A program made the position numbers and the translations under genes. A DNA stretch of 64,000 nt from Nothopassalora personata (Eukaryota; Ascomycota; Dothideomycetes; Mycosphaerellales; Mycosphaerellaceae): contig CM066290.1 of the NCBI GenBank assembly GCA_033816765.1, positions 3,286,001-3,350,000 on the forward strand. Reading direction: 5' to 3'. How positions within the stretch are numbered: the stretch's first letter is position 1; the number at the start of each line of letters is the position of its first letter. Below are positions 6,285 through 49,252 of the stretch, one piece after another. A model generated the notes under the pieces. The model did no database searches, was not told the DNA's origin, and worked only from the letters and a program-made list of their open reading frames with translations.

Positions 6285-6384
6285 TCTAGGTGCGTCGCGA
6301 AGATGGGTGGGAATATGAAGTGTTTCTCTGATTTGTTGAGATTCTCCTGTAATGCTAATGAATTCTGAGTAACAGGTCTGCATC

Positions 6385-12191: not shown

Positions 12192-12502
12192 GTCATACCC
12201 ATCATGACCCCTGGTTTGCGTCGCTTTTGGCTTGGATGCTGCACATTCCCCTGATCCTTGTTCTGCCTGCGGTTTTACTTGTCTTGCCTTGGCCGTGTGC
12301 GGGACTTCCGCACCCACCATCCATGCGAAGGCCACCAAGTTTCGGGAGTTAGGAACTAATCCGATCTTTCCCCACCATGTTTTCCACTTACTGCCTTCGT
12401 TCCTTGCACTTTGTTCTCCCGAATTAGCAGCTTGCAAAGAGAGACTGACAACAGCGCCAATCTTGGGAACGAGGCTTTGCTTGAACCTACTTCGATCTCA
12501 TC

Positions 12503-28773: not shown

Positions 28774-28977
28774 GGTGGAACGGCGTCGGCGGTATGCTGG
28801 AGTCCGGTCGCGGATTTGTTCTCATGGATTTTTAAGTAGGCATATGCTCCTCGATGACTCGTGGGATAGTCGCCTGCGTTTGAGTAAAAGCGATGCAAGG
28901 GATGAAAGGATGCTAATGGCCGTGGCCTGGTTGACATGGTTTCTCTCGAATCCGGGGTTTTGCCTTTTCGCCTATTT

Positions 28978-29130
28978 GCCTGTATGCCTGTATGCCTGTA
29001 TGCCTGTATGCCTGTATGCCTGTATGCCTGTATGCCTGTATGCCTGTTTGGCTGTTTGGCTGTTTGGCTGTTTGGCTGTTTGCCTGTATGCCTGTTTGCC
29101 TGTATGCCTATATGCCTATATACCTATATG
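28978..29130 (+). repeat. Octamer minisatellite (GCCTGTAT/GTTTGGCT)n
   Basis: Eight tandem GCCTGTAT units are followed by four TGTTTGGC units and degenerate units such as GCCTATAT. It lies inside the left TIR; the right TIR has a shorter version (48351-48460). Confidence 0.9.
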
Positions 29131-29135
29131 CTATG

Positions 29136-29180
29136 CACTTACTCGTAGGGGCTACTAAATATAGCCCCTACGAGTAAGTG
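29136..29180. repeat. Hairpin motif, perfect 18-bp arms
   Basis: CACTTACTCGTAGGGGCT is followed 9 bases later by its exact reverse complement. It is the inner end of the left TIR and the best-preserved member of a dispersed family. Confidence 0.9.
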
Positions 29181-29183
29181 TCT

Positions 29184-29423
29184 ATAGCCTCTACGAGTAA
29201 GTGCATAGCATATATAGTATAGAGAAGTTAGGGAAATAGATTTCGCGAATTAGTTTAAGTACACTCCCTCGTAGGGCATATTTACTAGCACTTAATCGTA
29301 GGAGCGAGTTTATAGACCCTACGAGTAAGTGTCTATAGCCCCTACGAGTAAGTGCTCATTTATAGGGTTACTATTAAAAGAGTTCTATAGGCGTTCGTTC
29401 TTTAAGAGTACTTACTCGTAGGA
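29184..29423. repeat. Cluster of hairpin-motif half sites
   Basis: Six further copies occur in both orientations: 29187-29204 and 29315-29331 (reverse), 29262-29277 (CACTCCCTCGTAGGGC), 29288-29305, 29338-29355 (reverse) and 29408-29423. Spacing is irregular. Confidence 0.85.
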
Positions 29424-29906
29424 CAATATAGTATTCGTAAGATAAGACATAATATAATAGAAAATAGGCGTAGTTATAGTTATATATAGATAGCAAACTA
29501 TTCACACTTCTTGTTCTTATAGCGATAGGCTCCGTAGGTAGTAGACTACATAGTACCGGTAGTAGTAGCACCTATTTACGAGTACTAGCGGCACTTATTC
29601 TTATGCGGCGTCTTACCGCGGCACGAACGACATACTTACGGTCTAGGCTTACTAAGACCTGTTACGAGGTCTTAGATATTGCCGGCATACGTCTACTTTA
29701 TTAGCCGGTTAGAAGACTAGCCGCCCTCGCTAGTAGCTACGCGCGAAAAAAGGTCGTCCTACTCCTATATATACGTTAGTCTTAATTATAGAGCGTAGAG
29801 TTAAGCATTAGCTTAGTATCGTAAAGACTTACTTACTACGGTATAGAGACAATACTACCCGCTAAAGGTATCCTATACTTATTTATATTTTTGCCCGTAG
29901 GCCGGC
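29424..29906. other. Island host sequence left of the gypsy element
   Basis: It is stop-rich on both strands. On the minus strand near 29590-29650 a frame reads VCRSCRGKTPHKNKC, a C-x2-C-x5-H-x3-C pattern like a zinc knuckle. This may be the C-terminal end of a minus-strand transposase. Bases 29902-29906 (CCGGC) are the target duplication of the gypsy element. Confidence 0.3.
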
Positions 29907-30103
29907 TATAAGGGGCAGCCTAGTAGCTAACTCCTACATGTGGCCTTACATGTAACATACGGTCGCGACCGGCTGCTAAGCCGCACGTAACACGCATGAG
30001 TACACCTTGCGACGCGCGATGCGTCTTGAACAAAAGGTAAGAATTAGTTCATCTACGACTAGTAGGTCGTAGGCGTGCTATATATTGCGACATCCCCTTA
30101 ACA
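29907..30103 (+). repeat. 5' LTR of the gypsy element
   Basis: It begins TATAAGGGGCAGCC (TG changed to TA) and ends CCTTAACA. Compared with the 3' LTR nearly all differences are C/T or G/A. Confidence 0.9.
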
Positions 30104-30234
30104 GTTCTAATTCTTCTCTTCGTTACAATCTATACACGCTATAGAGTCCGAACGCGACGATAGTAGCGCTACGCCTACGGCTCCCCTAAGCCCTAGGGCC
30201 TAGCAATAAGCGAGGCGTGTAGCCTTAGTCGTAA

Positions 30235-31220
30235 GGAGGGATGCCCTTCGGGTAGAGGTTAAGGAGAAGGAGATATAGAGGGAGATTAAACAGTTAGAGA
30301 TCTTACGGGACGTAAGCGTACCGCCGGCGGACCCTTAGGGCGAATCCGGCGGAGAACTATCCCCTACTCCCCCTCCCCCTCCTCTATCTATAGTAACTGA
30401 CGATGATATCGCAGCTCGAGGCGCGGTCGCATCGTATACGATACGTTTACGTCTTAAAGAACCTACGCCTTTTATAGGGGACTCGATTAAGAAAGCACGG
30501 GTATTCCTAAGGGAGCTCTCTCTTATCTTTACCCTCTTAGGCGGCACGTATACGACGAACGAGTTAAAGGTCCTGTATGGGGTTATGTACCTAAGCGGAG
30601 AGGCAAGTAAGCGATAGTACGCTAACTATAGCGTCCTTAACCTTAAAGGGTATATATACTAGGACTTAGAGGAATTCTGTCGAGACGTATACGGTAATCC
30701 TATAAACCGCGTGCTTAACGTAATGTTAGAGTATAAGGCGGTAAAATAGAAGGATAACTAGATAGTGCGTCAGTTTACGACTAAGCTAGATGTTATAGAG
30801 GATTAGTTAGGGGACTATACGGAGGCGTAACGCGTGCGATATATACTCGCTAAGCTTACGCCTAGCCTACGGTCCGCAATCGTTAAGTTTTATAATATCC
30901 TAATAACTAGAGAGAAACTAGTAATCCTAGCTTCGCGTATTAAAATTACGGAGCGTAGTAGCGGAGGGCACGACCGCGGGCAGCATAGTCGCCGTAGGCG
31001 AGAGACTAAGGGCGACTAAGGGCGACTAAGGGCGACTAAGGGCGAAGCGATCGTAGCTCGAAGTAGTAGAAGCATAGTTAGGCGTCGCGCGACCCGGGTA
31101 CGAGTTACTAGCGGGACGCCGGCGGATCGTCTATAACCTTCGATAGGACTAAAGCGGAGTGCTATAGATACTATAAGAAGGGTTACATTAAGACGGATTG
31201 CCCGAATAGGCACCTATAGA
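30235..31220 (+). pseudogene. Gypsy gag relic with mutated zinc knuckle
   Basis: Broken frames carry a gag-like sequence ending in a nucleic-acid-binding knuckle at 31160-31201. The spacing is exactly C-x2-C-x4-H-x4-C, but Cys 2 and His are both Tyr (TGT to TAT and CAC to TAC), the outcome expected of C-to-T mutation on either strand. Confidence 0.75.
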
Positions 31221-31281
31221 AGGACCGTAGCGCGTAAGCGGTTCGTAGGGTAGACGCTACGAAGGCTCTAACTAAGAAGGG

Positions 31282-31479
31282 CAGCGACTAGGGAAAAGGT
31301 AGAGGACTAGAAGTAGGTCGCTACTAAGTCCGAGTTTTCCTAAAGTCGACCCTTTAAGGCGAGTAGATGTGTGTCTAGCGTAGCGACTAGGGAAAAGGTA
31401 GAGGACTATAAGTAGGTCGCTCCTAAGTCCGAGTTTTCCTAAAGTCGACCCTTTAAGGCGAGTAGATACGTATCTAGCG
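31282..31479 (+). repeat. Tandem duplication of about 96 bp in gypsy
   Basis: The segment from AGCGACTAGGGAAAAGG to GGCGAGTAGAT is present twice head to tail, with a few point differences. It lies between gag and protease. Confidence 0.85.
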
Positions 31480-32165
31480 CGTTACTTACGAGGCGTAGTC
31501 GAGACTCGTAAGGGCTTTCGCGAGGCTACGTTTCTCCTAGATAACTATACGGATCTTAGCCTAGTGTCGTATAAGTATATACTCCGACATTAAATGTAAC
31601 CTATTAATAGGGTAAGGCTACCGAAGTTAGAGTCGTATACGTATAACCTAGGGTATTGCTACGGCGCCTTTACGGTTCAGCTACGACTCGCTAATAACGC
31701 GGGAGTAGAGCGCGTAAGTAACGCTATCTACTACGCGGTACCTATAGGTAGGCCATTAGTAATTTTAGGTAGACCCTAGAGGTACCGTAATCGGATCGTA
31801 AAGAGCGATTGTAAGGACTAGTAGTACTACGGTATAGAGACGCCTACGATTTAGTAGCGTAACGTACGCGAGTTCCTTAAGGATCTCGAGAGCTTAAAGT
31901 AGGTTTATACGATAAGTGTTCGGGCTATTACTATAGTAGTACCCGAAGGAGAGGGCCCCTCGTAGCCTAAAGAATTTGTAGACTTCCGAGATGTATACGT
32001 ACCTAATAAGTAGGCGAAGCGTAAGATGCCCGACGGGGTTAAGTATACAATTAATCTCGTTAAAGGAAAGAAACCCCCTTTTAAGCCGCTATACTACTAG
32101 TCCTTAACTAAGTTAGAGGCCTTAAAGGAGTACCTTACGTAAGTAATGGAGAAGGGGTAGATTAG

Positions 32166-32498
32166 TGTTACGGTTCGGAACGGAAACAGCATAAGAAGAC
32201 TTCATTGGACGAGCAGACGAGCAGACGAGCAGACGAGCAGACGAGCAGTCGAGCAGACGAGCAGACGAGCAGACGAGCAGTCGAGCAGACGAGCAGACGA
32301 GCAGACGAGCAGACGAGCAGCACGCCAAGGCATGGCACTATATAGACGACGCTTCTTTACGAGTAGATAGGAGCCTCGTGCTCAACTCATTTTAAGTATA
32401 CACCATATACTGTTTGGAACCACTACCTTCATAACTGATTGAGACATCCCTGCAAAGATCCAAGCCCGAGTTGTGATAACGTACAGCGGTTCCTAACA
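32166..32498 (+). mobile_element. Solo LTR, 333 bp, not RIP-mutated
   Basis: It starts TGTTACGG and ends CCTAACA, with TGTTA/TAACA as inverted ends. Direct repeats ATTAG flank it (32161-32165 and 32499-32503). Removing it and one ATTAG rejoins the gypsy frame across the protease/RT boundary ([16 protein letters not shown], allowing TAG for Trp). CA and TG dinucleotides are normal inside, unlike the host. It therefore came after the host was mutated. TATATAG near 32340 could be its promoter. No internal element remains, so it arose by LTR-LTR recombination or is a non-autonomous form. Confidence 0.85.
32208..32320 (+). repeat. Octamer minisatellite (GACGAGCA)n inside the solo LTR
   Basis: About 14 tandem copies, with GTCGAGCA variants at two places. 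Another 8-bp array, of different sequence, lies in the island's TIRs. Confidence 0.92.
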
Positions 32499-32509
32499 AT
32501 TAGGCGGTC

Positions 32510-33200
32510 CGTAAGCGAGGCGGGTACGCCTATCTTATTCGTGCTAAAGAAAGACGGTACCCTTAGGCTCTATATAGACTATAGAGGCTTAAATGAGATT
32601 ATAGTAAAGAACCGATACCCCCTACCCCTAATTAGCGAGACGCTAGATAGGCTATTAGGTTCTAGGTTCTTTACTATAATCGATTTAAAGGACGCCTACT
32701 ATCGTATCCCTATTAAGCAAGGCGATAAGTGGAAGACTACGTTTTGTACGCGATACGGATACTACGAGTACCTAGTAATGCCGTTCGGGTTAACTAACGC
32801 ACTAGTAACCTTTTAAGGGTATATTAATAAGGCGCTAACCGGCTTAGTTAATAACATTTACGTAGTCTACCTAGATAATATCCTTATCTATAGCGAGACG
32901 CGTAAGACACACGTACGAGCCGTACGCGAAGTGCTTACGAGGCTACGGAAGTTTACTCTATTCGTAAACCCTAAGAAGTGTCGCTTCTTCTAGGAGAATG
33001 CCGAGTTCCTAGGATTTATCGTAAGCGTCGTAGGCATATCGATAGATAGGAGTAGGGTAGCCGTAATCGAGGAATGACCTACGGCTACGAGTTTTTATAA
33101 GGTTCAATCCTTCCTAGGATTCTATAACTTCTATAGGCGCTTTATCGAAGGGTACTCGAGGATTGCGAAGCTATTAATAGACCTACTAAAGGGATGTAAG
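32510..33200 (+). pseudogene. Gypsy reverse transcriptase relic
   Basis: Readable motifs are [54 protein letters not shown] and [11 protein letters not shown]. The catalytic box reads YLDN at 32868-32879 where the family has YLDD; GAT to AAT is the likely change. A TAG after [10 protein letters not shown] replaces Gln or Trp. RNase H-like sequence follows (about 33290-33680, KTDALGFTIIGIIS). Confidence 0.88.
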
Positions 33201-34119
33201 AATAGTAAGAAGTAAGGGCCTCTTATATAGTCCGCTTACGAGGAGTAAGCGTTCTAACGGCTAAAAGCTAGGTTCCTCGGAGTACCTATCCTAAGGCACT
33301 TCGATCCTTCGTTACGTACGAGGGTTAAGACGGATGCCTTAGGCTTTACGATTATAGGCATTATCTCTTAGCTATTTAGGACTAAGTAGTATCTAATTGC
33401 CTTCTATTCACGTAAGATAATACTAGCCGAGTGTAACTACGAGACGTACGATTAGGAGCTACTTATAGTAGTTAAGGCTTTTAAGCATTAGAGGCTATAC
33501 TTAGAGGGCGCTACGTATACGGTACGAGTACTAGTCGACTACGCTAACCTATAGGGCTTTATAATAGTAAAGTAGCTAAATAGGTAGTAAGCTCAATAGG
33601 CTACGTTCCTATAGTCTTTTAATTTTATAGTAGAGCATCGGCCGGGTAAGACTAACCTAGCCGACGCGTCTTCGAGACGTAGTAACTACGTAGCTATAAC
33701 GTAATAAACTTCGAACTTACTACCTACCTTATAAAGTAAGCTATCTTTCTAGAAGGAGTCTCTAGAAGGGATAAGCGAGCCGACGGTAAAGCGCGTACTT
33801 ACTACCTACGAGGCGATATAGGGCGATATAGGCGCGGTAATAGTAGTACGGAGAGGTAACCTTCCCTATTAAGACAAGCCGTCGTTACTAGTAGTAGTGT
33901 GCGCTATAGTAATATAGGGTTAAGCTTATAGCTCGACGGGTAAGTTAATCCTACTCTTAATAAAGATCGCGTAGTAGTAAGACGACTAGTATATCGTATA
34001 CTTAGCGTAGGCGCTAAGCGCGAGGGACGCTAAGGGATAGTATGTAAAGGATAACCTTATGTACTACGGAGACGCGATCGTAGTACCTAGGGATCACGCA
34101 ATTAGGTCGCATCTAATTC

Positions 34120-35330
34120 GTATATACTACGACGACGTCCTTACGGGTTACTTTAGAAGGACTAAGACTAAAGAGCTATTACGACGTAATTATTAGTAGG
34201 ACGTACTTAGTACGGACGTAAAGCAATACGTCTAAGCCTATAGAACCTACTAGGGTTCAAAGGCTAAATGCTATCGACCCTATAGTAGGCTATAACCGCT
34301 TCCTAGACCGGAGCGGCCGTAGTAGGAAATTACTATAGATTTTATTACGGACCTACCTCTAAGTACGCGAGCCGGTTACGTATATAATACGATCCTAGTA
34401 ATAGTCGATCGCTACTTAAAAATAAGCTTATACATCCCAACGACGAAGACTTATATAGCCGTAGAGCTTACGAGGCTCCTACGAGACGAAGTCGTACGAC
34501 ACTATAGTGTCCCGTTAGGTATAGTAAGCGACCGAGGTCCGGTCTTTACTAGTTAGTTTTAGAGTAACTTCTACTTCGAGGCGCGTGTAAAGCGTAAGCT
34601 ATCTACGGCCTTTTACCCTTAGATAGACGGCTAAACTAAGAGGGTAAACTAAACCCTCGAATAATATCTTCGTTATTACTATAGTAATAATTAAACTAAG
34701 TAGGCTAAGTAGCTTATAGTTACTAAATTCGTAGCTAACAATAGCATCTACCTAACACTACGTATAAGTCCGTTCGAGATAGCGTACGGTTAGCGACCTA
34801 AGATTACCCCTATACTAACTAGATCTCGAGACGAGACCTAGGGGGGAGAAGTACTAGTAGCGGTAATAGCTACGAGTCGTATACGAAAACTACGCGCTAT
34901 ACTCGAGGAGCGATAGAAGGCTATAGTAGAAAGCTAGGCTCGCTACTATAATAAGACCTACTAAGCTAAGACCTACCGCGTAGGTAACTTAGTCCTATTA
35001 TTAACGAAGAACCTTAAGTTAGTAGTACTAAAGAAGAAGATAGGTCCGAAGTTTATCGGCCTATACCGCATTACGGACGCTATCGGTTCGTAGGCGTACC
35101 GCCTAGCGCTACTAGCCGACTTAAGGCTCTATAATGTCTTCTATATCTCTCTCCTTAAGCCGTATATCGGTAGCGATAAGGATGGACCCGTACCCCCTCT
35201 AGCTAATAAGGACGGAGAGTATAAGGTAGAGGTAGTACTAGATAGGCGTAAGCGTAAGGGTAAGCTATAGTATCTAGTCTAGTAGAAGGACTAGCTAGAG
35301 GAGTATAATAGCTAGGAACCGACGGAGGGC
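34120..35330 (+). pseudogene. Gypsy integrase and chromodomain relic
   Basis: The integrase core reads ITIDFITDLPLSTRAGYVYN, TILVIVDRYLKISLYIPT and GIVSDRGPVFTS, holding the first two acidic residues, then FEIAYG. GPKFIGLYRITDAIGS marks the C-terminal domain. YKVEVVLDRRKRKGKL followed by LEEYNS (35220-35330) matches a chromodomain, which in chromoviruses directs insertion to heterochromatin. Confidence 0.82.
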
Positions 35331-35449
35331 CTCGCAATGCGGATCGCATAGTAGCCGACTATAAGGCGTTAAGGAGAAGTAAATAAGACTAGTATAGGAG
35401 TACTAGAGTATAAATAAAACTTTTCTTAACTATAAATAAAATAAAAGCT

Positions 35450-36463
35450 AAAGAGTAGCGCGCCTACTAGGGGCTACGTAGAGTAGTAGTAGGCGAGGAG
35501 CCCGCGAGTAGCGTATAAGGCGAACGCCTTAGTTGTCGTTATGTAGTAACTTAGGTAGGAACGCCTAGTCGGCGGCGGTAGTATTAATGTTCTACGCCTA
35601 TAGGAACTAGGACTACGGTTAGTAGGGTACACGTATACGAGGAACATACGACTTACGGCGCGGCCGAGTTCGAATAGCCTATTAAGGGCGCGGTTCTACT
35701 CCTACTAGAGCGCAAGGGCTTCGGCGGCGGGGGCGGCGGTAGTAGTAGCGGCGGTAGAAGCACGTATACGGGTTTCCCCGGCACGCTTATACTTATAGAC
35801 ATTAAATTGCCTAATAGCCTATAGAAAGGGTTAGCCGAAGCATAGGAGACGTACTAGAGCCCCCGCACGCGAGTAGCAGTCGACTCGTAGGAGCGAAGTA
35901 GCGACTTACCTCCGTAATATCGTTACCTAGCTAGGTATATAGGCGGATCTACTCTACTAGCTCCTACTACTAGAGGTCTATAGGCGCCTAGCCTATTATA
36001 GCCGTAAGGAAGTCGCGCTAGGAGCGCGCGGCGCGTAGGCGACTTACTAGCGAGGCGATAGCGTAGCTAGTATTAGGTACGTAGCTATGTCTATTACGCC
36101 TATAGCGGCTATACTTCCTTAGGAGCTCGCCGGTAGTAACACTATTATAGTTATCGGCCTCGTCTAGTAAGTAGTTAGTATACGAATCGTAGGCGGCGCG
36201 CTTAGAGACTTACCCCTAACGAAGTATAGGAGGTACCGTATGTATATATTAATCCGCTACGAGAGCTTAGTAGCGGGCGAGGGCGTTAGTAGCTACGAGG
36301 GAGATACTAGTCGCTTACGACTACTAGGCGTTCTAGGTACGTTACGTACTAGAGCCGCCTAGCGGCGCTCATCTTCTAAGGCGCTAGTAGTACTATCGCT
36401 ACTAGTACTACTAGAGGAGGCGGAGCGGCTAGAGAATGGCGGCGAGGAGGGCCCGTCCGACAT
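35450..36463 (-). pseudogene. Antisense additional ORF between pol and 3' LTR (relic)
   Basis: The minus strand from an ATG at 36463-36461 reads MSDGPSSPPFSSRSASSSS, TSSDSTTSALEDERR, a TAG where RRR or RQ would continue, then AALVRNVPRTPSSRKR. The frame stays protein-like in patches down to about 35450, including Pro/Leu-rich stretches. The 1.3-kb space between chromodomain and LTR is otherwise unexplained. Some plant and fungal gypsy elements carry antisense genes here. The product is unknown. Confidence 0.4.
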
Positions 36464-36773
36464 AATAATAATAATAATAATGATGCTAGCGAGGCGCTTA
36501 CGGTACGGGTGCGGTGCGGGTACGTAGTAGTAGTGTAACGAAGGTAGTGCGCTAGAGAACGTGCTAGGAGAAAAGAGCTAGGTTAGGCTAGAGTTTTATA
36601 CCCCTAACTAGCTACGTCGGTATAGTAACTAAGCCTCACTTACCTATACCTACATAACGATACGTACGTAACCCGTATATAGGCCGTATAGTAACTATAA
36701 TTCTAGAAGTACGTAGGAACCTCTACGTAGTAACTAGCGAGCTAAGGATAGCTCGTACGGGAGGGGAGGCAAT

Positions 36774-36968
36774 TGTAAGGGGCAGCCTAGTAGCTAACCC
36801 TTATATGTAGCCTTACATATAACATACGGTCGCGACCGGCTACTAAGCCGTACGTAACACGTATACGTACACCTTACGACGCGTAATGCGTCTTAAATAA
36901 AAGGTAAGAATTAGTTCATCTACGACTAGAGGTCGTAAGCGTACTATACATTACGACATCCCTTAATA
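36774..36968 (+). repeat. 3' LTR of the gypsy element
   Basis: It begins TGTAAGGGGCAGCC and ends CCTTAATA (CA changed to TA). The CCGGC duplication follows at 36969-36973. Confidence 0.9.
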
Positions 36969-37012
36969 CCGGCCTTACTTACTAGGGTTTACGCCTCGGC
37001 GTACGATATAAT

Positions 37013-37146
37013 ACTTAATGCTTATCCTAAGCACTTCTTAAATGCTAAGGCCCTAGCTACCTAAGGCACCTACTTTTCTTAGCTTATCTTACTTTCTCGC
37101 GACTTCGTAGATCTCTCTTAATATATTAATCTACTTACATTGTCTA
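37013..37146 (+). repeat. Copia 5' LTR remnant
   Basis: These 134 bases match 41233-41366 with only a few C/T or G/A differences. Upstream of 37013 the match is lost, so the 5' part of this LTR was replaced or rearranged. Confidence 0.82.
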
Positions 37147-38353
37147 GTTATGACGCCCTCGCGCTATACAACTGCGCGCATACCTTCCGATAGATACTGT
37201 TAATTGTATTCTACTAATCGCGCGTATTCGCGATACCTCGTTAGTAGATACGACTTAACGCAACTTTAGTAGTAAACATATTAAGTTGCGACCTAGTCGG
37301 TAACGCGACGAGTATTCGTAGCGACACCTAGTTAGTACACTATAGTAGTAGATAGATACTAACACTAACGGTAACATTACTAGACTCGAGATACTACTAG
37401 CGTAGTAGTCTATTGCCGGTACTTAGAGCTAGTAATAATCTTAGTAGACCGAGTCGGCTACTCCTTGAAAGACTAAGAAGCCTACATTAACTCGCGGCTT
37501 TATTAACATAGTCGGCCGTAATAATAACGGCACCCCTAGTATTAGTAAGCTCTAAGGTAAAGACGACTATAGTAGATAGGCCGACATACTCGAGTCCGTA
37601 CTACGTAGCGAGTCGCTTTAGGGACTTATTAATAACACTAAGTAGAAGCCTACAATACGCACTAACGAGTAGTAGTAGGAACTTAAGGAGCGAATTAAGG
37701 CATAGGATGCTAAGAAATACTAGGCCCGCGCACTTATTATTACCAATTGTAGTTAGTCTATTACCGAGAACTGTAAGGCCTATTAATAACTAAACACCCT
37801 ATAGGACTATCTTAAGTCGATATACGGTTAAACTAGAAAGTCTAAGGAGTACTCGCTATATCTAGAGTTCGAGTTACATACCTATAGCGGCTCTAACCTA
37901 GATAAGTTTTACTAATAATATTAAGTAAAGCTTACTAATCTAAACGGCACTGAATTAGCTATATTAAAGGCCTAGGCCCTATTTCGCTTCCTATACTAGA
38001 TCTTACTATACTTCCCTACATTCGCGTCGGTAAAACGTAAACAGTTAAGGCAGCTTACTAGTAAGATCGAGGATAGCACGACTATTACACTCGATAAGGT
38101 AATAAGTAACCTACTTAATAAGGCGACTACTTAATAGTCTAAGACCGCTAATCTCGTAGTAAAGTAGAACACCCCTAACCCTTTCCCTCTAGCTAACCCT
38201 TAATAATAGGGTAATAGCAACAACACTCGTAGCGGCGGTGTACCCCGTAGTACTACACGCGGACGAGGTCGTAGAGGCCGCGGCAATTAGAATAACGGTA
38301 GTCGCGGAGGCAGTTAGAATAGTAACAATAATAACTAGTAGTAGAAGCTAATA

Positions 38354-38395
38354 TGCGATAGCTATAGTGTTATAGGTTATGTTAAGACAGTATAC
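38354..38395 (+). pseudogene. Copia gag zinc knuckle with Cys and His lost
   Basis: It reads C-D-S-Y-S-V-I-G-Y-V-K-T-V-Y, exactly C-x2-C-x4-H-x4-C spacing with three metal ligands turned to Tyr. The first TGC codon survives, as it does in the gypsy knuckle. Confidence 0.8.
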
Positions 38396-41157
38396 TAGAA
38401 CCTCTACCCTAAGCTTATACTAGCTAGATTCAAGCCTAAGACTCTAGATAACTAGCAGTAGCGTCAGTAGGTGAATAATACTACTAACAACCTATAGAGG
38501 CAGCCGAAGGAGACCGCTCAATTTGCGGCCTACGGTAGTCTCGAGGATCTAATAACTCCTTATAACGGTAACTATTACATGTTTACGGCGGCTATATTTA
38601 AGGAGTACATTTAAGATACCTTAGTAATGCTTATAGCGAAGGACCGTACCGATTAGGTTATGGACTCCGGCTACACTTCTTATATAATAAATACGCTTAG
38701 TAACATAGTTAGTTATAGACCCTATAATGTCCCTATTAAGATAGGTAAGGGGATTATTACTACTACTACATACGGTATTATCTAACTAGACCTATTCGAG
38801 TTCGGTATTATCTATTTCTTATAGGTGCTGTACGTGCTAGGCCTAGTAGCTAATCTAATCTTAATAGAGGCGCTTCGCCGTAAGGGTATGTACTACCGTA
38901 ACGACGACTAAATCCTCTTTATAAAGAAGGATAGTAAGCGTACGGTAGCCCATTGCTATAGCCATCTTAGACTACTATTCTTAAAGTTAAAGGACTTACC
39001 GACAGCCCTTACTTCTTCTAAGGTCGAGCCATCGACAGCTACTATAGGAGACCTGTAGCATCGCCGCCTTAGACACATTTATAGCCGTAAGCTAGTACAG
39101 CTACATAACGATAAGCGCATCATTATTGTCGGCAACGGTAACCTTAGTAAGTACCTACGAGAGTGCATCCCCTACCGTAAGGCTATAGGCTATAAGATCT
39201 ATAACCGTATACCTATAGTAAGGCTAACAACCCTATACTACATTATAGCAGTAGATATGGTTATAGTACGTAACCTTAGGCTTAGTAAGGAACAGTACTT
39301 CACCCTATTCACCTACCTAGCTAGCCTAAAGCGTACTATCTTCTACTTAGCTTAGAAGGATAGCGCTACTTAGTATATCCGTATCGTATACCGCTAGGTA
39401 AAGATATAATATAACATAGGTATTGCTATCTTCCGTATAGATAGGGGTAGTAAATATAGCGGCAATGCACTTATCTAATATTCATAAGATAAAGGCTTCA
39501 GTTTATAGATTATAATACCTTACTTATCCGAACAAAACGGCGAAGCGGAGGTGAGTAACTACATTGTTTATACAATAGCTCGAAAGCTATTATTAGATGC
39601 TAGCCTACTAGTCGGCCTATAGCTAGAAGTAGTTACGGCTTTAGTCTATCTTCTTAACCTTATACCGAGCGTAGCTATTAAGGGACTGTTACCTTAGGAG
39701 GTTATTAACTCGTAGTAAGGTAAGCCTAAGAAGCTAAGCCTATTACACCTTAAGGCCTATAGCTATTATGCCTTCGTCTATAACTACAATATAGGTCGAG
39801 GTAAGAAGTTCAACTTACGCTTACTATAAGGTAAGCTAGTTAGCTATAAAAGCCGTACTATCTACCGTATGTACGTGCCATTAGTATATAAGGTATTTTG
39901 AACTAAGGATATCTAGTTCATTAAAGGCGATAACCCTATTATAGTAATGGCTAATAAGCCTAAAACTAATAAAGATTAACTTATCTCGTTTAAAGATATC
40001 TTTCCGGTGGAGCGCAACACTAAGCTAGGCCTACGCCGTGTAGATGCTAAGCGAGGTGTGACTCCTAGGGGTGTGAAAAACATTATAGTCATTAACAGGC
40101 CTATTAACACACTAGGTAAATAGGCTAATAAGGACTTCTTATAAGGCGTAGTAGACTCATATTAAGATAAGACACTAGACGACCTACTATAAGTATAGCT
40201 AGCACTACGTCGATCTTACCGTATACGCTAAGCGCTATAGAAGGTACGAGATCCGGCTAACGGCTATAGAGCACTATATTACTCACTTAAATAGCCTACT
40301 AAGCAACTTAAAGACATACTACATACGATAGTAATTGCCTTTATAGCCGCGACTAACTAGCTAGATCTAGTAATAGTTATTATACCTAAGAGTCACAAGG
40401 TAGCAATAGCTATACCTTAACACGCTAAGTGGCGTGTAGCTAAAGAAGCTAAGTTTATAAGTCTTAAGTAATATTAGACATAGGCTTATAAGGACAAGGC
40501 CATACTACTAGTAGGTATACGTGTGCTAAAGGGTAGATAGGTCTATGCTATTAAGCTAAATGCTAATAGCAAGATTAGCCGGTTTAAGGCACGCTAGGTT
40601 GTCCGTAGTGACACATAACGTAAAGGTAACCTACTCGAAGAGCTAAGCGAGCTAGGAGTATTCCCTATTACTATATATAAGGACAATATGCTAGCTATCG
40701 ATATTACGAAGCGTAGTAGCGGTGTAGATAGCCGTACTAAGTACATCGATACCCGCTATTACTACATTTGCGAGGCTATTACTAAAGGTAAGATTAAGGT
40801 TAAGTGGATAGGCACTAACAACTAGGTAGCTAATGGGTTCACTAAGGCACTAGATTAGTTTAAGTACGCCGACTTTGTATAGTAGCTTAATATAGCTAAC
40901 TATAAGGCGGCGATTAAGAATAATACCGAGCCTAATTAATAGCAGTTATTAGAGCTCTAATTAGACGACACTAACAGTACGCTAATTGCCTTATTTTAGT
41001 AGATAATAACCGTTATACTACGGTGTTAGCGCTAGCTAATGAGAACGCGCGAAACACCTTTAACTTTCTTTTAGTAGTAGTAGCTACACCTACACTACCA
41101 CTACGCGGCAATTACTAGACATAAGGACATAGGGATTAGACGAGGAGGATAGCATGG

Positions 41158-41366
41158 TGTTAGTAAGCGAGCGTATGCTTTCTTTAGTGCGTGTACACCT
41201 GTTCTAGCATCTAGAGCCTCGTCATAGGGGTGACTTAATGCTTATCCTAAGTACTTCTTAGATGCTAAGGCCCTAGCTACCTAAGGCACCTACTTTTCTT
41301 AGCTTATCTTACTTTCTCGCGACTTCGTAGATCTCTCTTAATACATTAATCTACTCACATTGTCTA
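41158..41366 (+). repeat. Copia 3' LTR
   Basis: A purine-rich tract (GACGAGGAGGATAGCA, 41139 on) precedes TGTTAGTAAGC. The LTR ends ACATTGTCTA, with CA probably changed to TA. Length is 209 bp. Confidence 0.7.
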
Positions 41367-41433
41367 TAATCGCTACGCTTAACGATTTTAATAGCCTTAC
41401 CGGTAGTGTTTCTACCGCCGGTAGAGGGCATAG

Positions 41434-41528
<95 letters not shown>
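41434..41528 (+). repeat. (ACT)n microsatellite, about 31 units
   Basis: It is an almost perfect triplet run just right of the copia 3' LTR. It keeps one frame open as poly-Thr; this is not a gene. Confidence 0.95.
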
Positions 41529-42856
41529 GTGCTAGTAGTGTTAGTGTTAGTATTAGTAGTGCTATAGAGACAATGTTAGCGATAGGATCTTAATAATAGC
41601 CTTAAGGCATAAGAGGCTTAAAGGTAAGAGCGAGACTTACGTAGAAGGAGCATAAGATAGGCCGGTAGCGCCCTCGTTATAGTTAGTATTACTACGTATA
41701 TATAGTTAGTACTCGCTTAGATAGACAGATCGATATCGATTAGCTTACAAGTCCTCGCCGCCGCCGCCGCTAAACTCGTAGTCGTCGTCGTTGTCGTAGT
41801 CGGGGCTATAGTATAATGTTAGTAGTGTATTCTCGTAAGCCGAGCTTAGCTAAGCTAAGTAACTAAGGACTAAGGACATATAGAATCGGGCCGTTATTAT
41901 ACGGCTCGAAAGCCGGAGTAGCACCTTCTTCTTACTACTACTAGGTAGGCGCGGTAGGCGCGGTAGGCGATAGTAATAGTAATAGTAGTAGTAATAGTAG
42001 TAGTAATAGTAGTAGTAATAGTAGTAGTAGTAGTACGGGCTTACGAGCGGCCTTAGAGGCGAGCTTCTTACGTAGTGCCTTACTACCGGTAGACTTACGA
42101 GCCGCCTTAGAGGTATACTTACTATAGATATATTAGTATACCGAGTAAGTAATTAGGGCGAATAGTGTACTTATAGGGCGGCGCGATCGTAGTAGAAGAA
42201 CTCGCTTCTAGAAAGGTGTTAGCTAGTCGCTATACTAGAGTATAGTTAATCTTAGGCAAGCCTTTACATATGCTACGAGGGAGTAGAGGGATGCTAGTAA
42301 CGCGCTAGGCGCACCGAGCGTAAAAAAACGACCTATGTCGTTACTACTACTACTACTACTACTATTACTACTATTACTACTGTTACTACTGCTACTATTG
42401 CTACTATTACTACTGTTACTACTATTATTATTATTACTACTACTACTACTACGGATAGTTATAAGAGGGCGTATGTAATGTAAATGTTAAGGAAAGGAAG
42501 ACAGTTATTTAGAGAAGTGTCGCGCTTCTTAAATGCCTTTCCTCTATTATCCTAAGTTGTATTATCGTCGCTAGGTAAGTTCTTAATAGTATACTATTGT
42601 AGGCTATTATCTAGCTATTGTTCTTAAATAAGTAGGTCCTAATCCTATAGATTATTAGAGGATATAATCCTAAGGTACTCGAGCCTTTATATAAGTCGTC
42701 TATTAGTAGATATGTTAAGTAGATTTAGGTGATACTATAGCGATAGTAGCGAAGTGTACGGAGTAGCGTATAGTAAATGCTAAGGTTCTACTAAGCCGTA
42801 TATAGTTAGTAAAGTTATGCGTCGAAAGACGACCCTATACCTCGTGTTAGTAAGGA

Positions 42857-42900
42857 GCACTTCCTCGTAGGCGTGTAATACTCGCCCCTCCGAGGAAGTG
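42857..42900. repeat. Hairpin motif, C-variant
   Basis: GCACTTCCTCGTAGGCG is followed by the near reverse complement CGCCCCTCCGAGGAAGTG. This variant has CTTCCTCG instead of CTTACTCG on both arms, so the arms have changed together. Confidence 0.85.
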
Positions 42901-43017
42901 TAAGTACTCTATAAGAAATAAGCTATATCGAAACATATAAGCTTACGGTAGTAAGTAGCGACTAGGCTATAATGTTATTAGGTAAGTAAGTGAAGCGATA
43001 CCTAACTCTAGTAAAAA

Positions 43018-43194
43018 GCACTTACTCGTAGGGCCTATAGTACTTACTCGTAGGGCCTATTACTACACCCCTACGAGTAAGTACTATAGGAAACTCGTCG
43101 TGCCCGAAAGTGAGCTAAGACTAACTAAGCGACTCGTAACCCTCCTTAAGGTAGGCACGACTTCCGGCGGTAATATTCTCCTACGAGTAAGTAC
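43018..43194. repeat. Hairpin motif cluster
   Basis: Two direct copies (43018-43035 and 43040-43057, ACTTACTCGTAGGGCC) face one inverted copy (43067-43084). Another inverted copy is at 43179-43194. Confidence 0.85.
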
Positions 43195-43348
43195 GTTAAT
43201 CGAGAAGGAGCTCGTAATCTATATCGTCCGTACGACCGATACGGAGTAGGTAAGGAGGTAGGCGGTAGATTTATTAAAGTCGATCTTAAAACATTAAATA
43301 CGTAGTAACTATACCCTATTAGCTACTCTAACATAATAAAAGATGTAA

Positions 43349-43393
43349 GCACTTCCTCGTAGGGGCGAGCATTACACGCCTACGAGGAAGTGC
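43349..43393. repeat. Hairpin motif, C-variant
   Basis: GCACTTCCTCGTAGGGGCG pairs with CGCCTACGAGGAAGTGC after a 9-base loop. Both arms again carry the CTTCCTCG form. Confidence 0.85.
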
Positions 43394-45583
43394 ACTAACC
43401 GTAACCGTAATAGTATTACTATACGTCCTTTTGACTCCGGAGCCTCCTTAGTGAGGCTGTCCCTACGGTAGAGGCCCGACCTGCCCTAGTAGGTCGTCTT
43501 AATACGTCGCCTATCGACGACGCTACCGCATTGTCTTAAGCATTGTCATCTTAAGCATTGTTATCTTAAGTATTGTTATCTTAAGCATTATTATCTTAGA
43601 CTATATCGACTTAACCTATAGGTTCTTAACCTATAGACTCCGTAGTTAATTGTTCTTATAGTAATAGACTAGGCTCTAATAGCTAATTCTAGTATTACGG
43701 CTATAGATGACTACCTTAACTACTAGGCTAGGCGTCTTACTAACGTTCTAGTTACGAAGACTCGGGTATGCTATCTAAAGCTAGGGCTTAGTTTAGCGTA
43801 CCTACGGAAGGAGCGAACATACTAACCGGCTTGACGTGTTTAACTGTAGCTTATTATAGCGTACTAATTAGAAGAGTAAATATACGACCTTACTCGACAT
43901 TCTATTCTATTATAGCCTACTATTCGGTAGGAGCTTAGTCCTTAGTAACTTATGTCTATACTATGCTAGGCACTAATAGCTCTTTAGCTTCGGGTTAAAG
44001 ACGTGTACGGTAGTAAGGGCAATATAGTATATTAAACTTAGCGACTATCTTAGTAATGTAACGGAAGTATATATAGTATTAGCACTTTGTCCGCTAACGA
44101 ACATACTTACTATTGTCCTAGTCGTTATAGTAGATCGGACAGCGGTTTTTATAGTCGCCTAGGCTTCGACGTTCTTAAGGCTTAGGCTAATCCTATAGAC
44201 GCCGTAGAACTATAGCCGGTAGGTTAGGTAGGCTACTTTAGTCGCTATCGTCGTTAGTAGTTAGTAACTCGTAGATAGAGCGCTTCTTACTACCCTCGTA
44301 CGCCTTCTTCGAGGTGCGTTAAGTAGTCGCACTAGTAGTAGTAGTCGTACTAGTAGTCGTACTACTCTCGCCGTTCGAAGCGCCTCGCTTAATTAATGTA
44401 TCGAGCCGGCCTTAAGTAAGGTATCGCTCGTATTTAGCATTATCGAGATAGTCCTCGCGACGCTCCTACTAAGGAGGCGAGAGAGGACGAGGTATACGGA
44501 ACCTACTAGGCTGTACTTTATATAATGGCTACGATAGTAGTAGTAGTACTTCGGGTTCGTCCTAGTGTACGAATAGAGCATCGTCGCTATCTGCTCCTAT
44601 AGTAGTATCTCGTACACCGCTAATACTAAGCGGAGTAGACTACCGCGTATCCTATGTAGACGTAGCCTAATCCTAGTCCTAGTCCTAGTCCTAGTCCTTA
44701 TCCTTATTAGCGATATAAACATTCTTCTATATGTCTTCGTAGATTTCTCGGATAATAAAGACCTTAATAATAACACGCTTAGTACTAGGTCTACTATTAA
44801 AAGCCGTAACGAGTAAATTAAGATCCCCTCTTTCGAGTAGTAACTCCCTTACCCAGATAGGCTGTCGACTAGTAGAATTGATACGCGAAGTAAAATAATG
44901 CTTAAAGTGCGGCTCCCTTAGCATCTCCTTTACCTCGGGTACCTCTAATATAAAGAGATCCTATAGCTACGTAGGTCGGTTAGGCGTAGGGACTCGCTAG
45001 AGTAGTAATAGAAAGGTGTCTATATAATTAGTCCACTCCTAGGTATACGTAAGGATTCTCTCGCTATATACGATGTGGTTGTAGTTGCTGCCCTCCCTTA
45101 AAGAGATAAACACATTATACGATATAAGGTTAAACCGGACGAACTATCGTATCTACTTCTCTTTACCTTTCCCCTTAGCTCTTATAATAGACTTCTTAGC
45201 TAGTATCTTTCTTCGAGCTATAGACTTAAGAGGATTACTTTCTTCGTTAGACTTGGTAACCTTCTTCGACAATTTAGGTACCGCTAGATGTAATGGATTG
45301 TAGGTAGCATTATGTATCGGGCGCTTCTTAGTCCTCTCCTTACCTTTCCTTTCTTTCTTAGCCCGTCTAGCGTTACGAAACGTCTTAAATCTATCGTAGG
45401 TACTACTAGGGCCTCCGCTAGAAACGACAGCTAGCTAAGTAGATTACGGTAGTAATTCGGCATTAGACGAGGAGAGACTCGGGGACCTTCGATAGCCGCA
45501 CTTCTTATAGAAGTAAGTACTAGCCTTAAAGGTAGCGCCGTATACGGAGTAGAATAAAGGCATGTTGTTACTAATGTCGTCGT

Positions 45584-45660
45584 AGAGCTAATGGAACCGA
45601 TAGAGCTAATAGAATCGATAGAGCTAATAGAACCGATAGAGCTAATAGAATCGATAGGGC
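45584..45660. repeat. 18-bp tandem repeat, about four units
   Basis: GAGCTAATAGAATCGATA and close variants repeat head to tail, alternating AATCGATA and AACCGATA. Confidence 0.9.
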
Positions 45661-47016
45661 TAGCGGTTATTAAGTAGATAAGAATTTCGAGGGTAGCGGC
45701 TTAGGCGTGTTATATTAATTGCCGCAATATCTACATCGCGGCGGCAGTCCTCCGGTATAACATAATATATAGATAAATGATCTATACTAGTAGAGGTTAC
45801 TATAATTATTGCCCCCTACTATATAACTAGAAGTAAAGACTTCTACTACTACAGTACTGCTACTACGCTGCCTATTACTCGTTTACGGAAGTAAACATCG
45901 CCCTAAGGCGATCTAATAGTTAGAGCTCTAGGTTGTCGCTTAGGCGTTTAAACTCGAGTAAGTTACCGCTACCCTTAATAAACGCTATAGTAGCCTATCG
46001 TAACCGCTTATAAGTAACGAAGTGTAGCCTAACCGAAGGGTTGTCTAGATCTAAGTCGTTCTCGACCTCTATACCGTCTAATTCACGAGGTAGACCTATA
46101 AATTTAAGGGCGTCTTAACACTATTTAAGCGTCTCCTCTAGTAGGTAGGCTTCGAGATCGTATTCTTCTATACGCTCTTACTACTATCGTATCTATAGAT
46201 AGTCTAGGTCGATATTCTATTTCTAATCTCGTGCGCCCTTTCCGAATATCCGAGGGTAGTTATATAGTAGCTTAGGCGTGCTAGAGCAGTGTGACTCTAC
46301 GTTCGGATTATATCGAATATAATATATGTTCTAGTTCTTAATAAAGTATGTAACAGTCTTACGAATAATAGGCATATAGATAGCGAGGAAGGCTACGCGA
46401 TTAGCTTTCTTATCCGGATTATAGAGGCTATCTACTTTAATCTTACCTTATGTCGTTGTTAGTATAATAAGCTACTAAGTAAGGTAGGTAGTATATACTA
46501 AAGTAATCCCTCTATGTGTTTAGCGCACCCTTCGCGACTTCGCCGTTCTAGTACTCGACGGTATTGTTTCCCTTACTAGTCGTGTACTAAAAGTTCTCTA
46601 AAAAGCTTAGCCCACGAGCTACGAATAGCTCTCGTAGTTTAAGATAGGCGTTCGCGAGCATTAGTGTCTCGACGCCTTTATTAGATCGTATAATGCGTAG
46701 CTAATAACCTCGCCGTATTATCTTATTAATATATTGTGCGAAGGTTAAGAACTTTATCTTCGTAAGGTTACCGGTATATATCTAAATAATCTAGCGGGAG
46801 AACATATCTATATATACATAGATCTATATTCTAAAGAACGGCTCTATCTTATAATAGGCATTAATTAACTAGACATAGTTTAGGCCTATTGCCTTCGGCC
46901 TACTATAGTGTAGCTAGAAATATAGCTCGCGTAGTCGTCGTATACGGAATAGTATAGTATAGATCTCGCGAGCGATCTTATAGATACGGTCTCTATATAT
47001 AGAAGTTAATATATAT

Positions 47017-47168
47017 GTACTTACTCGTAGGCGCGCACCCTTCGCCGCTACGAGTAAGTACGCGTAAGTAAAGAGAATAGCTAGTACTAACTATCTCGTA
47101 CGTAGCCTATATGTATTGCTAGATTACGAGTAATAGGAGTAGCTACGCTAGCCCCTACGAGGAAGTGC
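47017..47168. repeat. Hairpin motif pair plus single site
   Basis: GTACTTACTCGTAGGCGCG (47017 on) pairs with GCTACGAGTAAGTAC (47047-47061). A lone inverted C-variant, GCCCCTACGAGGAAGTGC, is at 47151-47168. Confidence 0.85.
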
Positions 47169-47247
47169 TCGATAGCTCTATACTCTATATACTATTATAT
47201 ATAAGAGTCTCGTAGCCTAATTAGGATAGAGTCTAGTATGTAATAGT

Positions 47248-47605
47248 ACACGGAGTACATACTCGTAGCGGTGTAGTAGTACATACTCGTAGCGGTGTAG
47301 TAGTACATACTCGTAGCGGTGTAGTAGTATATACTCGTAGCGGTACAGTAGTACATACTCGTAGCGGTGTAGTAGTACATACTCGTAGCGGTATAGTAGT
47401 ACATACTCGTAGCGGTATAGTAGTACATACTCGTAGCGGTATAGTAGTATATACTCGTAGCGGTGTAGTAGTATATACTCGTAGCGGTGTAGTAGTACAT
47501 ACTCGTAGCGGTGTAGGAGTACATACTCGCCGCAGTGTAGGAGTATATACTCGTAGCCGCGGTAAGTAGTGTAGTAGTACATACTCGTAGCCGCGGTGTA
47601 GTATA
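47248..47605. repeat. 24-bp minisatellite inside the transposase relic
   Basis: About 14 units with core ACATACTCGTAGCGGT, preceded by GTAGTAGT. All three minus-strand frames stay open through it because the unit is a multiple of three without stops. The core resembles the island's hairpin motif (ACTTACTCGTAGG). Confidence 0.93.
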
Positions 47606-48161
47606 CTCGGAGCGGTTAAAGAAGTAGATATATACGTACCTACTAATAAAGCGATTCTTCCTACGTAGATAGTTAGCGATAGTACGATAGCTACTATTAT
47701 ACGTAACATTAGAAGCGATTATAACCGACAAGACTTTACGAATAGCCTACGTAATCTCTTCCTCGTTCTCTAGTAGTATACGCCTTAGAAGACCTATTAA
47801 TCTTCGTAGATTACGGTATTAGGTTAACGACAACTTAAAGCTATCTTTTTTTAGCATCTTAACTATATACTTATTACCTAATGCTAAGTACCGCTAAAAG
47901 TTGTATTTAATCTTCCGTCGTAGACAGTCCTCTTACTATAGAGTAAACTTAGTACGTATGTTAGCCTTAGTTAATCCCTACTATTCGAGCCTACGCTCTA
48001 AAGTAGGTAGTGTAAGATAGACTCTATAGTCCTAGCGAAGACGCTAAAGGATTTCTTAATACGTAGTCTTACTTACGATAAGCTAGGCGATCGTCTTACG
48101 ATATAGCTCGATATCGATAGCTTAGCCGCTACGGCGGCGATTCGTAACAATAGGTATAACG

Positions 48162-48196
48162 AGGGCGGAGGGCGGAGGGCGGAGGGCGGAGGGCGT
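48162..48196. repeat. 7-bp tandem repeat (GGAGGGC)n
   Basis: Five head-to-tail units lie about 110 bp inside the right TIR. Confidence 0.9.
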
Positions 48197-48305
48197 GTAC
48201 GTATACGCGTAGCGATCGGTGTAGTGTAGCGTAGTGTAGTATTAAGGTTAATACTTAGAAAGAATCTTAGATGCAACCGTGGATTACGTAGCCTCTGTAT
48301 ACTGT

Positions 48306-48508
48306 GTACTTACTCGTAGTAGCTAATCTATAGCCCCTACGAGTAAGTGCATAGCATATAGGCATATAGGCATATAGGCATACAGGCATATAGGCAAACA
48401 GCCAAACAGCTAAACAGGCATACAGGCATACAGGCATACAGGCATACAGGCATACAGGCAAAAAGGCAAAACCCCGGATTCGAGAGAAACCATGTCAACC
48501 AGGCTACG
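48306..48508 (-). repeat. Right terminal inverted repeat
   Basis: Read on the minus strand it repeats the left end: CGTAGCCTGGTTGACATGG, the same unique block, fewer octamers and the same hairpin. The first positions differ from the left end by TG to TA, consistent with one RIP-like change. Confidence 0.82.
48351..48460 (-). repeat. Octamer minisatellite in the right TIR
   Basis: On the plus strand it reads as ATAGGCAT, ACAGGCAT and ACAGCCAA units, the reverse complement of the left array. Copy number differs between the two ends. Confidence 0.9.
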
Positions 48509-48646
48509 AGGCTAATAAGCGAAGGAAGATGAGCCTCTCGCTCCTCAGAAGCTGCTCAGACCATGGCGAGCTAGTCCTGACATGGGCAGACTTCTTTGCA
48601 CAATGTCGCTTCCTTCATCTCCAAACATTCACTGCTACGGCGCCCA

Positions 48647-48670
48647 CACACACACACACACACACACACA
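48647..48670. repeat. CA microsatellite in the CSL4 leader
   Basis: About 12 CA units end 10 bases before the CSL4 start codon, within the expected 5' untranslated region. Confidence 0.9.
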
Positions 48671-48679
48671 TCGGCAAGC

Positions 48680-49252
48680 ATGGCATCAGTAACACTTCCA
48701 GGCCAGGCCCTCGGACCAACGGCCGCCAACGAGATAGGCGAAGGCACGCATATCCACAACGCTCAACTTTGCGCCAGCATTTCCGGACAAATCCTCTCAA
48801 AACCTTCGACATCAAAATCATCAAAACTGCCAACAGTCTCCGTCATAAGGACCACAGGAAACCTCCTCCCAGAGGTCGGCACCGTCATCCTCGGCAGAAT
48901 CACGCGCACAGGTCCAAAGCAAGCCAACATCTCCATCCTCGCGATCGGCTCAGGTGGCGAGCACGTCTGCCGCGATCCATTCCCAGCATTGATCAGACAG
49001 CAGGACATTCGCGCTACGGAGATTGACAAAGTGAAAGTCGCGGAGAGCTTCAGAGTGGGAGACGTGGTGAGAGCTGTAGTTATTAGTTTGGGCGACGAGA
49101 GAAGCTATTATCTGAGCACTGCGAAGAATGAATTGGGGGTTGTGCTTGCTACCAGTGAGTGGGGGAACCAAATGTTTCCAATTTCCTGGAAGGAATGTCA
49201 GGATCCCGAGACTGGGTTGAAGGAAATGAGGAAGGTGGCGAAGCCGGTGTGA
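48680..49252 (+). CDS. CSL4: Exosome complex subunit CSL4
   Basis: It is a cap subunit of the RNA exosome, which degrades and trims RNA 3'-5' in nucleus and cytoplasm. The 190-residue single-exon protein starts MASVTLPGQALGP. An N-terminal CSL4-type segment (GEGTHIHNAQLCASISGQ) is followed by a linker and an S1-like RNA-binding domain: LPEVGTVILGRITRTGPKQA, NISILAIG, GVIRxQDIRATE-like QQDIRATEIDKVKVAESFRV and GDVVRAVVISLGDERSYYLS. The zinc-ribbon-like end keeps NELGVVLATS and GNQMFPISWKE but shows only one Cys (ECQDPETG), as in some fungal forms. An upstream in-frame ATG at 48596 was rejected because its extension translates the CA repeat. The start codon lies only 170 bp from the island edge. 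Confidence 0.92.
   Translation: MASVTLPGQALGPTAANEIGEGTHIHNAQLCASISGQILSKPSTSKSSKLPTVSVIRTTGNLLPEVGTVILGRITRTGPKQANISILAIGSGGEHVCRDPFPALIRQQDIRATEIDKVKVAESFRVGDVVRAVVISLGDERSYYLSTAKNELGVVLATSEWGNQMFPISWKECQDPETGLKEMRKVAKPV

Follow-up and report, generated by a model that had tools for sequence, protein, structure and literature searches.

A degraded copy of a probable integrase-type cut-and-paste DNA transposon family in Nothopassalora personata

Organization of the locus

The window is the whole stretch of DNA that was analysed, 64,000 nucleotides of contig CM066290.1 of Nothopassalora personata (positions 3,286,001 to 3,350,000), and it contains an island degraded by repeat-induced point mutation (RIP). 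The island consists of one copy of a DNA transposon, designated copy W and assigned to a family referred to here as family 1, which spans 19,594 bp including two nested elements of the long terminal repeat (LTR) type. Copy W was inserted between divergent genes for an MFS transporter and for CSL4 (EXOSC1), 144 bp upstream of the ATG of the MFS open reading frame (ORF), and may thereby have separated promoter sequence shared by the two genes. The ends of copy W, its nested elements and the flanking genes are located as follows; TIR denotes terminal inverted repeat.

27286..28773, minus strand: MFS transporter gene
28913..28917: left target-site duplication CTAAT (same 5-mer at 48512-48516)
28918..48511, plus strand: whole element, family-1 DNA transposon copy W (inverted ends and comparison with other copies)
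28918..29154, plus strand: left TIR, comprising GGCCGTGGCCTGGTTGACATGG, a unique block, an octamer array and a hairpin (self-comparison and other copies)
28959..29131, plus strand: octamer tandem array of the left TIR (repeat family D3)
29907..36968: nested LTR retrotransposon 1, 7,062 bp (LTR match 29909-30101 / 36776-36966, 89%)
37013..41365: nested LTR-type element 2, 4,353 bp (LTR match 37013-37146 / 41233-41366, 97%)
48331..48511, minus strand: right TIR (outermost three bases mismatched, inward CCT against GGC at the left)
48354..48470, minus strand: octamer tandem array of the right TIR (repeat family D5)
48512..48516: right target-site duplication CTAAT (same 5-mer at 28913-28917)
48596..49252, plus strand: reading frame that holds the CSL4/EXOSC1 gene

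As an earlier, preliminary description of the island had stated, its two edges are the same sequence in inverted orientation, with arms at 28921-29074 and 48355-48508 that are 154 nt long and 86% complementary, and CCTGGTTGACATGG, a unique block, an array of octamers and a hairpin occur at either end. The terminal sequence is GGCCGTGGCCTGGTTGACATGG on the left and, in the inward direction, CCTCGTAGCCTGGTTGACATGG on the right; when copies are compared, the left and right ends are mismatched at the outermost three bases and at one further base. The same description placed gctaat directly outside both ends, and the string is present at 28912-28917 and 48511-48516, but a six-base duplication was rejected because the last base of the element is a G, which is conserved in other copies and so belongs to the element, and the duplication is the 5-mer CTAAT. 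The RIP indices of the copy W core are 2.18 for TpA/ApT and 0.30 for (CpA+TpG)/(ApC+GpT), against 0.63 and 1.34 in one flank and 0.59 and 1.30 in the other. The flanking genes and the RIP signature suggest a filamentous ascomycete host. Copy W is dead, as seen from its stop codons, its RIP signature and the loss of both catalytic aspartates, which read N.

Each nested element carries its own 5-bp duplication, CCGGC at 29902-29906 and 36969-36973 for element 1, and ATAAT at 37008-37012 and 41366-41370 for element 2. Element 1 was judged gypsy-like by eye from a fragment resembling reverse transcriptase. Subtraction of both elements and of one duplication each from copy W (19,594 minus (7,062 + 5) minus (4,353 + 5)) leaves 8,169 bp of its own DNA, in agreement with the earlier estimate of about 8 kb. 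The description of a 19.6-kb transposon is not retained, as the extra DNA of copy W consists of the two LTR-type elements and three other copies of the family (F, G and I) measure only 8.4, 8.0 and 8.3 kb.

Copies of family 1 in the genome

The 54.5 Mb genome (40 contigs) was searched with the ends of copy W, giving 112 listed matches for the left end and 118 for the right end, with 40 candidates scored in each search. Many of the listed matches form inverted pairs elsewhere in the genome, which is the outcome that the preliminary description had sought from such a search. Ten further pairs (copies A to J) were taken whole and compared with copy W (n = 11). The interior is common to the copies at approximately 86-97% identity (in pieces of at least 400 bp), with the exception of copy J, which shares little interior with copy W. 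Since copies F, G (without a few left-end bases) and I fall between 8.0 and 8.4 kb, the natural size of the element is about 8 kb; the other copies range from 3.9 to 22.6 kb, the excess of the larger ones being probably due to inserts, which were delimited for copy W only. Copies A (element coordinates 5171-12737) and E (5596-13164) contain, in opposite orientation, the same 7.57-kb insert at 99.9% identity, which from its size and long open frames is probably a recent retrotransposon insertion.

An exact 5-bp duplication, and none longer, flanks all ten of the whole copies in which both ends are undisturbed (W CTAAT, F CTGGG, D GGTCA, C GCGAC, B CTTGT, A GAATG, I ATAGG, H ATACC, E CTAAC and J GAATG). 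Copy G was excluded from this count, its left end being split by an element of a sister family, and its flanks, GGTTG and GGTTA, are one transition apart. With four wider pairs described below, exact 5-bp duplications were found in 14/14 tested undisturbed end pairs, lying 3.9-90.8 kb apart, copy G being the 15th pair. Copy J (locus L028, C7:3770958-3776813; 3.9 kb) has two left-type ends of the variant GGTCGCGG 225 bp apart, each preceded by GAATG, and part of its interior resembles nested element 2 of copy W at 77-80%; the same left-end variant occurs in two of the four wide pairs.

An empty site was found for copy E, which lies inside a dispersed repeat. When its flanks were joined with a single CTAAC, they matched across the junction at all 40 listed places (40 scored of 714 candidates) with 97-99% identity, and the two sites that were inspected aligned without gaps over 80/80 and 79/80 positions. 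It is a paralogous site that belongs to copy E, as distinct from an allelic site of copy W. The island might otherwise be read as a graveyard of repeats lying between two unrelated short repeats, and it is indeed full of nested, RIP-hit repeats, while some ends have no partner among the listed matches (for example C13:710370 and C7:1101922). The exact duplications, the common interior core and the empty site refute that reading, which is regarded as extremely improbable, and an end sequence that exists as a separate, singly occurring short repeat is contradicted by each of the 15 pairs tested.

Widely spaced end pairs

Four pairs of family-1 ends with exact 5-bp duplications enclose much longer stretches.

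C8:2279547-2370327: wide family-1 pair, span 90.8 kb
C2:69147-123996: wide family-1 pair, span 54.8 kb
C5:3432159-3477982: wide family-1 pair, span 45.8 kb
C3:2484996-2521585: wide family-1 pair, span 36.6 kb

These pairs raise the question of a large, cargo-carrying transposon whose original size was tens of kb. Within them, 14 of 20 sampled 150-bp windows carry the RIP signature, called at TpA/ApT of at least 1.5 (7/12, 4/4, 2/3 and 1/1 in the individual pairs), and since the sampled windows are mostly RIP-hit, nested repeats are the likely filling, thin as the sampling is. Of the six remaining windows, five were scanned in translation. A retroviral SH3-like domain was matched by one of them, just under the cut-off (E=1.7e-5), the other four gave no domain match, and none matched the compared loci. 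Three of the non-RIP windows resemble gypsy gag or integrase, by eye only. With the three copies of 8.0-8.4 kb and the excess of copy W made up of two LTR-type elements that have their own duplications, a giant cargo transposon is considered very unlikely, and it was discarded on the RIP-hit interior windows within the limits of this sampling. A size of 20-90 kb in TIR-bounded units with clean duplications may be due to nested insertions and not to cargo.

Transposase gene and second gene

The gene layout is seen in copy F (C5:4795178-4803588), which scored best among the family-1 matches of the transposase search, and the relics in copy W were mapped from it.

43423..45566, minus strand: relic of ORF2 (zinc ribbon at 45483-45557, RING at 43993-44153)
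45860..46447, minus strand: relic of transposase exon 3 (mapped from copy F)
46501..46991, minus strand: transposase exon 2, a relic that includes the DDE core (N at both aspartate positions, glutamate kept)
46992..47645, minus strand: transposase intron 1 (24-bp minisatellite at 47182-47613 and two dispersed-motif sites)
47646..48157, minus strand: relic of transposase exon 1, N-terminal (in copy F a weak, sub-threshold Clr5 match, E=0.026)

In copy F the transposase gene reads inward from the right end and has three exons with inferred boundaries, an intron 1 of 0.8 kb that contains 19 units of a 24-bp minisatellite, and an intron 2 of 51 bp. The minisatellite unit, GCTACGAGTATGTGCTGCTGCACC, includes a string close to the dispersed motif considered below and a donor-like string, GTATGT. 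The transposase is followed by a second gene, ORF2, of approximately 716 codons. Its product has a zinc ribbon at the N terminus (best E 2.7e-4) and a RING of the ZNF598 type (E=4.3e-5), all matches being under the curated Pfam cut-offs; no ORF2 homologue was found at E <= 0.001 among 7,992 scored candidates. In copy W the transposase gene (45860-48157, minus strand) contains many stops, and its three exon relics account for the integrase-core remnants noticed earlier; two of the three residues of the catalytic triad are lost.

An exon-3 piece of copy F matches PF24764 (rva_4, integrase core) with E=1.3e-4 and 22.2 bits, against a cut-off of 26. A relative of the transposase, P0001 (50% identity, E=1.3e-58), was the sole protein at E <= 0.001 among 2,526 candidates drawn from 5.8 billion, and it matches PF24764 over the cut-off (E=3.5e-19). 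A search from P0001 led to P0002 and P0003, of which P0003 gives weak matches to the models of IS481 (2.3e-4) and IS3 (9.1e-4). The spacing of the triad is DD41E in copy F and P0001, and DD45E in P0003. A sequence search of the PDB with P0001 gave no meaningful match, only two spectrin chains at E=0.55. The earlier statement that the element fits no class that can be named was thus too strong, because the match of P0001 to PF24764 and the weak IS481 and IS3 matches of P0003 point to the neighbourhood of the IS3EU superfamily.

Sister families

A second family was defined from the type copy C8:2113432-2118231 (locus L029), whose transposase is approximately 50% identical to that of family 1 and matches PF24764 over the cut-off (E=1.4e-9). 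Its ends are GACAGTGGCCTAGGC...GCCTAGGCCACCGCC, and the two families have the end motif GTGGCCT in common. The left GACA of family 2 was present in all 30 loci cut, from 40 places listed, and right ends were paired for 20 loci. The duplication is exactly 4 bp in 18/20 left/right combinations and 5 bp in none; the two inexact pairs (L033/L068, ccgt/gcgt, and L032/L072, ggag/ggcg) are each off at one of the four bases. One family-2 copy lies inside the left end of family-1 copy G (C3:4188060-4192859 region; L023, L055) and duplicates TTTC, which other family-1 copies hold once at the same place, constituting an empty site for family 2. As this insertion splits the end of copy G, it is later than the insertion of copy G itself. 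Family 2 also includes members of 1.84 kb, and a third family (L030), with its transposase at C2:2965518-2966313, has 64-67% transposase identity.

Proposed mechanism

The general features of integrase-type cut-and-paste elements, TIRs, a fixed short duplication and a DDE enzyme of their own, are all found in family 1. We put the probability at about 0.9 that copy W is a RIP-inactivated member of a multi-copy cut-and-paste DNA transposon family with a core of approximately 8.2 kb and an integrase-type DD41E enzyme with a core of the PF24764 (rva_4) type. The preliminary view is upheld that the island is a single DNA transposon bounded by TIRs, with an integrase-core transposase of its own and a short duplication, in which LTR elements are nested. 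The cut-and-paste chemistry, the sequence bound by the enzyme and a role for ORF2 are what we infer from this organization. The transposase gene, with its two introns, would encode the DD41E enzyme, which presumably recognises ends of the GTGGCCTGG type, and possibly the iterated TTACTCGTAGG motif; it would excise the element and join it to target phosphates 5 bp apart, after which gap repair would leave the 5-bp duplication. Copy W lies between the MFS and CSL4 (EXOSC1) genes, and the insertion of two LTR elements and RIP came later.

Several observations weigh against this interpretation. No intact or active copy was seen, and all 131 genome-wide transposase rows carry at least one stop. Family 1 itself matches Pfam directly in a single fragment that stays below the cut-off, and a genome search with PF24764 returned 13 rows, none of them from family 1, with 12 in or beside listed family-2 copies and the 13th at C6:1458878. 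Structure prediction for P0003 failed, with a mean predicted local distance difference test score of 36, and gives no structural support for the enzyme type. By its transposase the family would perhaps stand near IS3EU.

Iterated motifs

A 14-mer, CACTTACTCGTAGG, recurs within the copies of family 1.

29136..29422: cluster of 7 copies of CACTTACTCGTAGG with 0-1 mismatch (further copy W sites at 42858-43379 (7), 47018, 47154 and 48336)

At no more than one mismatch it is found 13-19 times per copy in ten family-1 copies (A to I and W) and twice in copy J, and it is absent from the rest of the window and from 200 single-base shuffles of copy I. None of the 19 sites of copy F falls in the drawn exons or ORF2, which make up 45% of the element (1.4e-5 under a uniform expectation, the sites being clustered and hence not independent), and none of the 17 sites of copy W falls in exons or ORF2. 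The family-2 type copy has 51 occurrences of GACTCG in its 4.8 kb, a density of 10.6 per kb, compared with 0.39 for its own flanks and 0.65 for the window flanks. By coordinates, several of these sites lie inside reading frames, which is evidence against a strict non-coding rule. The related string ACTCGCT occurs 31 times in the same 4.8 kb (L029:3933-8732), and the 5.1 kb of flanks contain two GACTCG and no ACTCGCT. A stretch of family 3 repeats CGTGCTCCTTA 10 times. It is possible, judging from the sequences, that the iterated motifs are binding sites of the element's own proteins; alternatively, they may have arisen by repeat growth without function.

Comparison with known systems

The duplication of 5 bp in 14/14 pairs bears out the earlier remark that by duplication length the element is neither Mutator-like (8-11 bp) nor a Polinton (6 bp). 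Mutator-like elements may likewise have long TIRs and differ in their longer duplications and their different transposase, and no MULE (Mutator-like element) Pfam match was obtained among the 10 copy-F pieces scanned. Polinton/Maverick elements carry self-synthesis genes. They resemble family 1 in their TIRs and integrase-type enzyme and differ in a 6-bp duplication (PMC10045372) and perhaps in their gene content, only two core genes having been recognised here by reading and by Pfam on 10 selected copy-F pieces, no dedicated search for DNA polymerase B being made.

In the sections of the cited papers on which this comparison draws, TGTNR ends are given for Ginger1 and Ginger2, together with a duplication of 4 bp, which is 5 bp in TDD-4/5 (PMC2836005). 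The Ginger2/TDD elements share with the present families an integrase-like transposase and a duplication of 4 or 5 bp (5 bp in family 1 and 4 bp in family 2), and differ in their TGTNR termini, which are not found here, and perhaps in their H2C2 zinc finger before the DDE core, for which the copy-F pieces scanned, all short, gave no Pfam match. IS3EU (with GingerRoot) is similar in its integrase-like DDD/E transposase, its TIRs, its fungal members and the accessory genes of some members (PMC12730594, PMC10045372). Its duplications are usually 6 bp and its complete families always have TA..TA termini (PMC10045372), the elements of rust fungi having TAYGG..CCRTA and 6 bp (PMC12730594), whereas the present ends are G-rich and without TA, being GGCCGTGG...CTACGAGG (GG..GG) in family 1 and GACAGTGG...GGCCACCGCC (GA..CC) in family 2. 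Because neither of these two defining features was found, the families are not filed in IS3EU. The IS3EU-related Styx of Zymoseptoria (7,927 bp, four ORFs) is likewise an element of about 8 kb in an ascomycete host, with TIRs and a transposase plus extra genes, and differs in its GATA, CCHC and DUF3577 genes, its 36-bp TIR and its 6-bp duplication (PMC10853768), as against a zinc ribbon and RING and a long TIR with an octamer array here. In the open-licence literature, to the extent covered by these sections and with Repbase outside its scope, no description was found of a fungal element that combines this kind of transposase with a duplication of 4 or 5 bp; PMC12810828, examined for fungal 5-bp elements, concerns in the part consulted KDZ, CMC/CACTA-type, LTR and R2-type elements.

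The chances are about even that the families are plain members of the IS3EU superfamily, in which case fungal duplication lengths and termini would be more variable than published and only the family name would be new. The PF24764-type transposase, the weak IS481 and IS3 matches of P0003 and the size and extra genes of Styx favour this, as does the report that no other DNA transposon is as abundant as IS3EU in Colletotrichum lupini (3.15% of transposable element content, by annotation; PMC11645255), and the duplication lengths and termini set out above stand against it. A separate eukaryotic integrase-type lineage beside IS3EU is proposed more tentatively, as somewhat the less probable case. 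It would be characterized by duplications of 5 bp in one family and 4 bp in its sister within a single genome, by G-rich ends with a GTGGCCT core and unmatched outermost bases, and by a motif particular to each family that is iterated approximately 10-50 times (in three families; strictly outside genes in family 1) and may have evolved in step with whichever part of the transposase or of ORF2 binds DNA.

Superfamilies are assigned with the help of duplication length, which reflects the geometry of the enzyme. With transposases that are approximately 50% identical, a common end motif and duplications of 5 and 4 bp in one genome, in a type reported with 6, a change of spacing would become directly testable. 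Should annotation pipelines already label such elements IS3EU, the difference in duplication length would be concealed. The transposase sequences point to the IS3EU/IS481-like neighbourhood, in which these families would stand as a lineage that has G-rich ends and duplicates 4 or 5 bp of target. The element works like the cut-and-paste elements of the IS3EU and Ginger types, and is a variant with a transposase of a known kind, unlike the published families compared here in its ends and its duplication.

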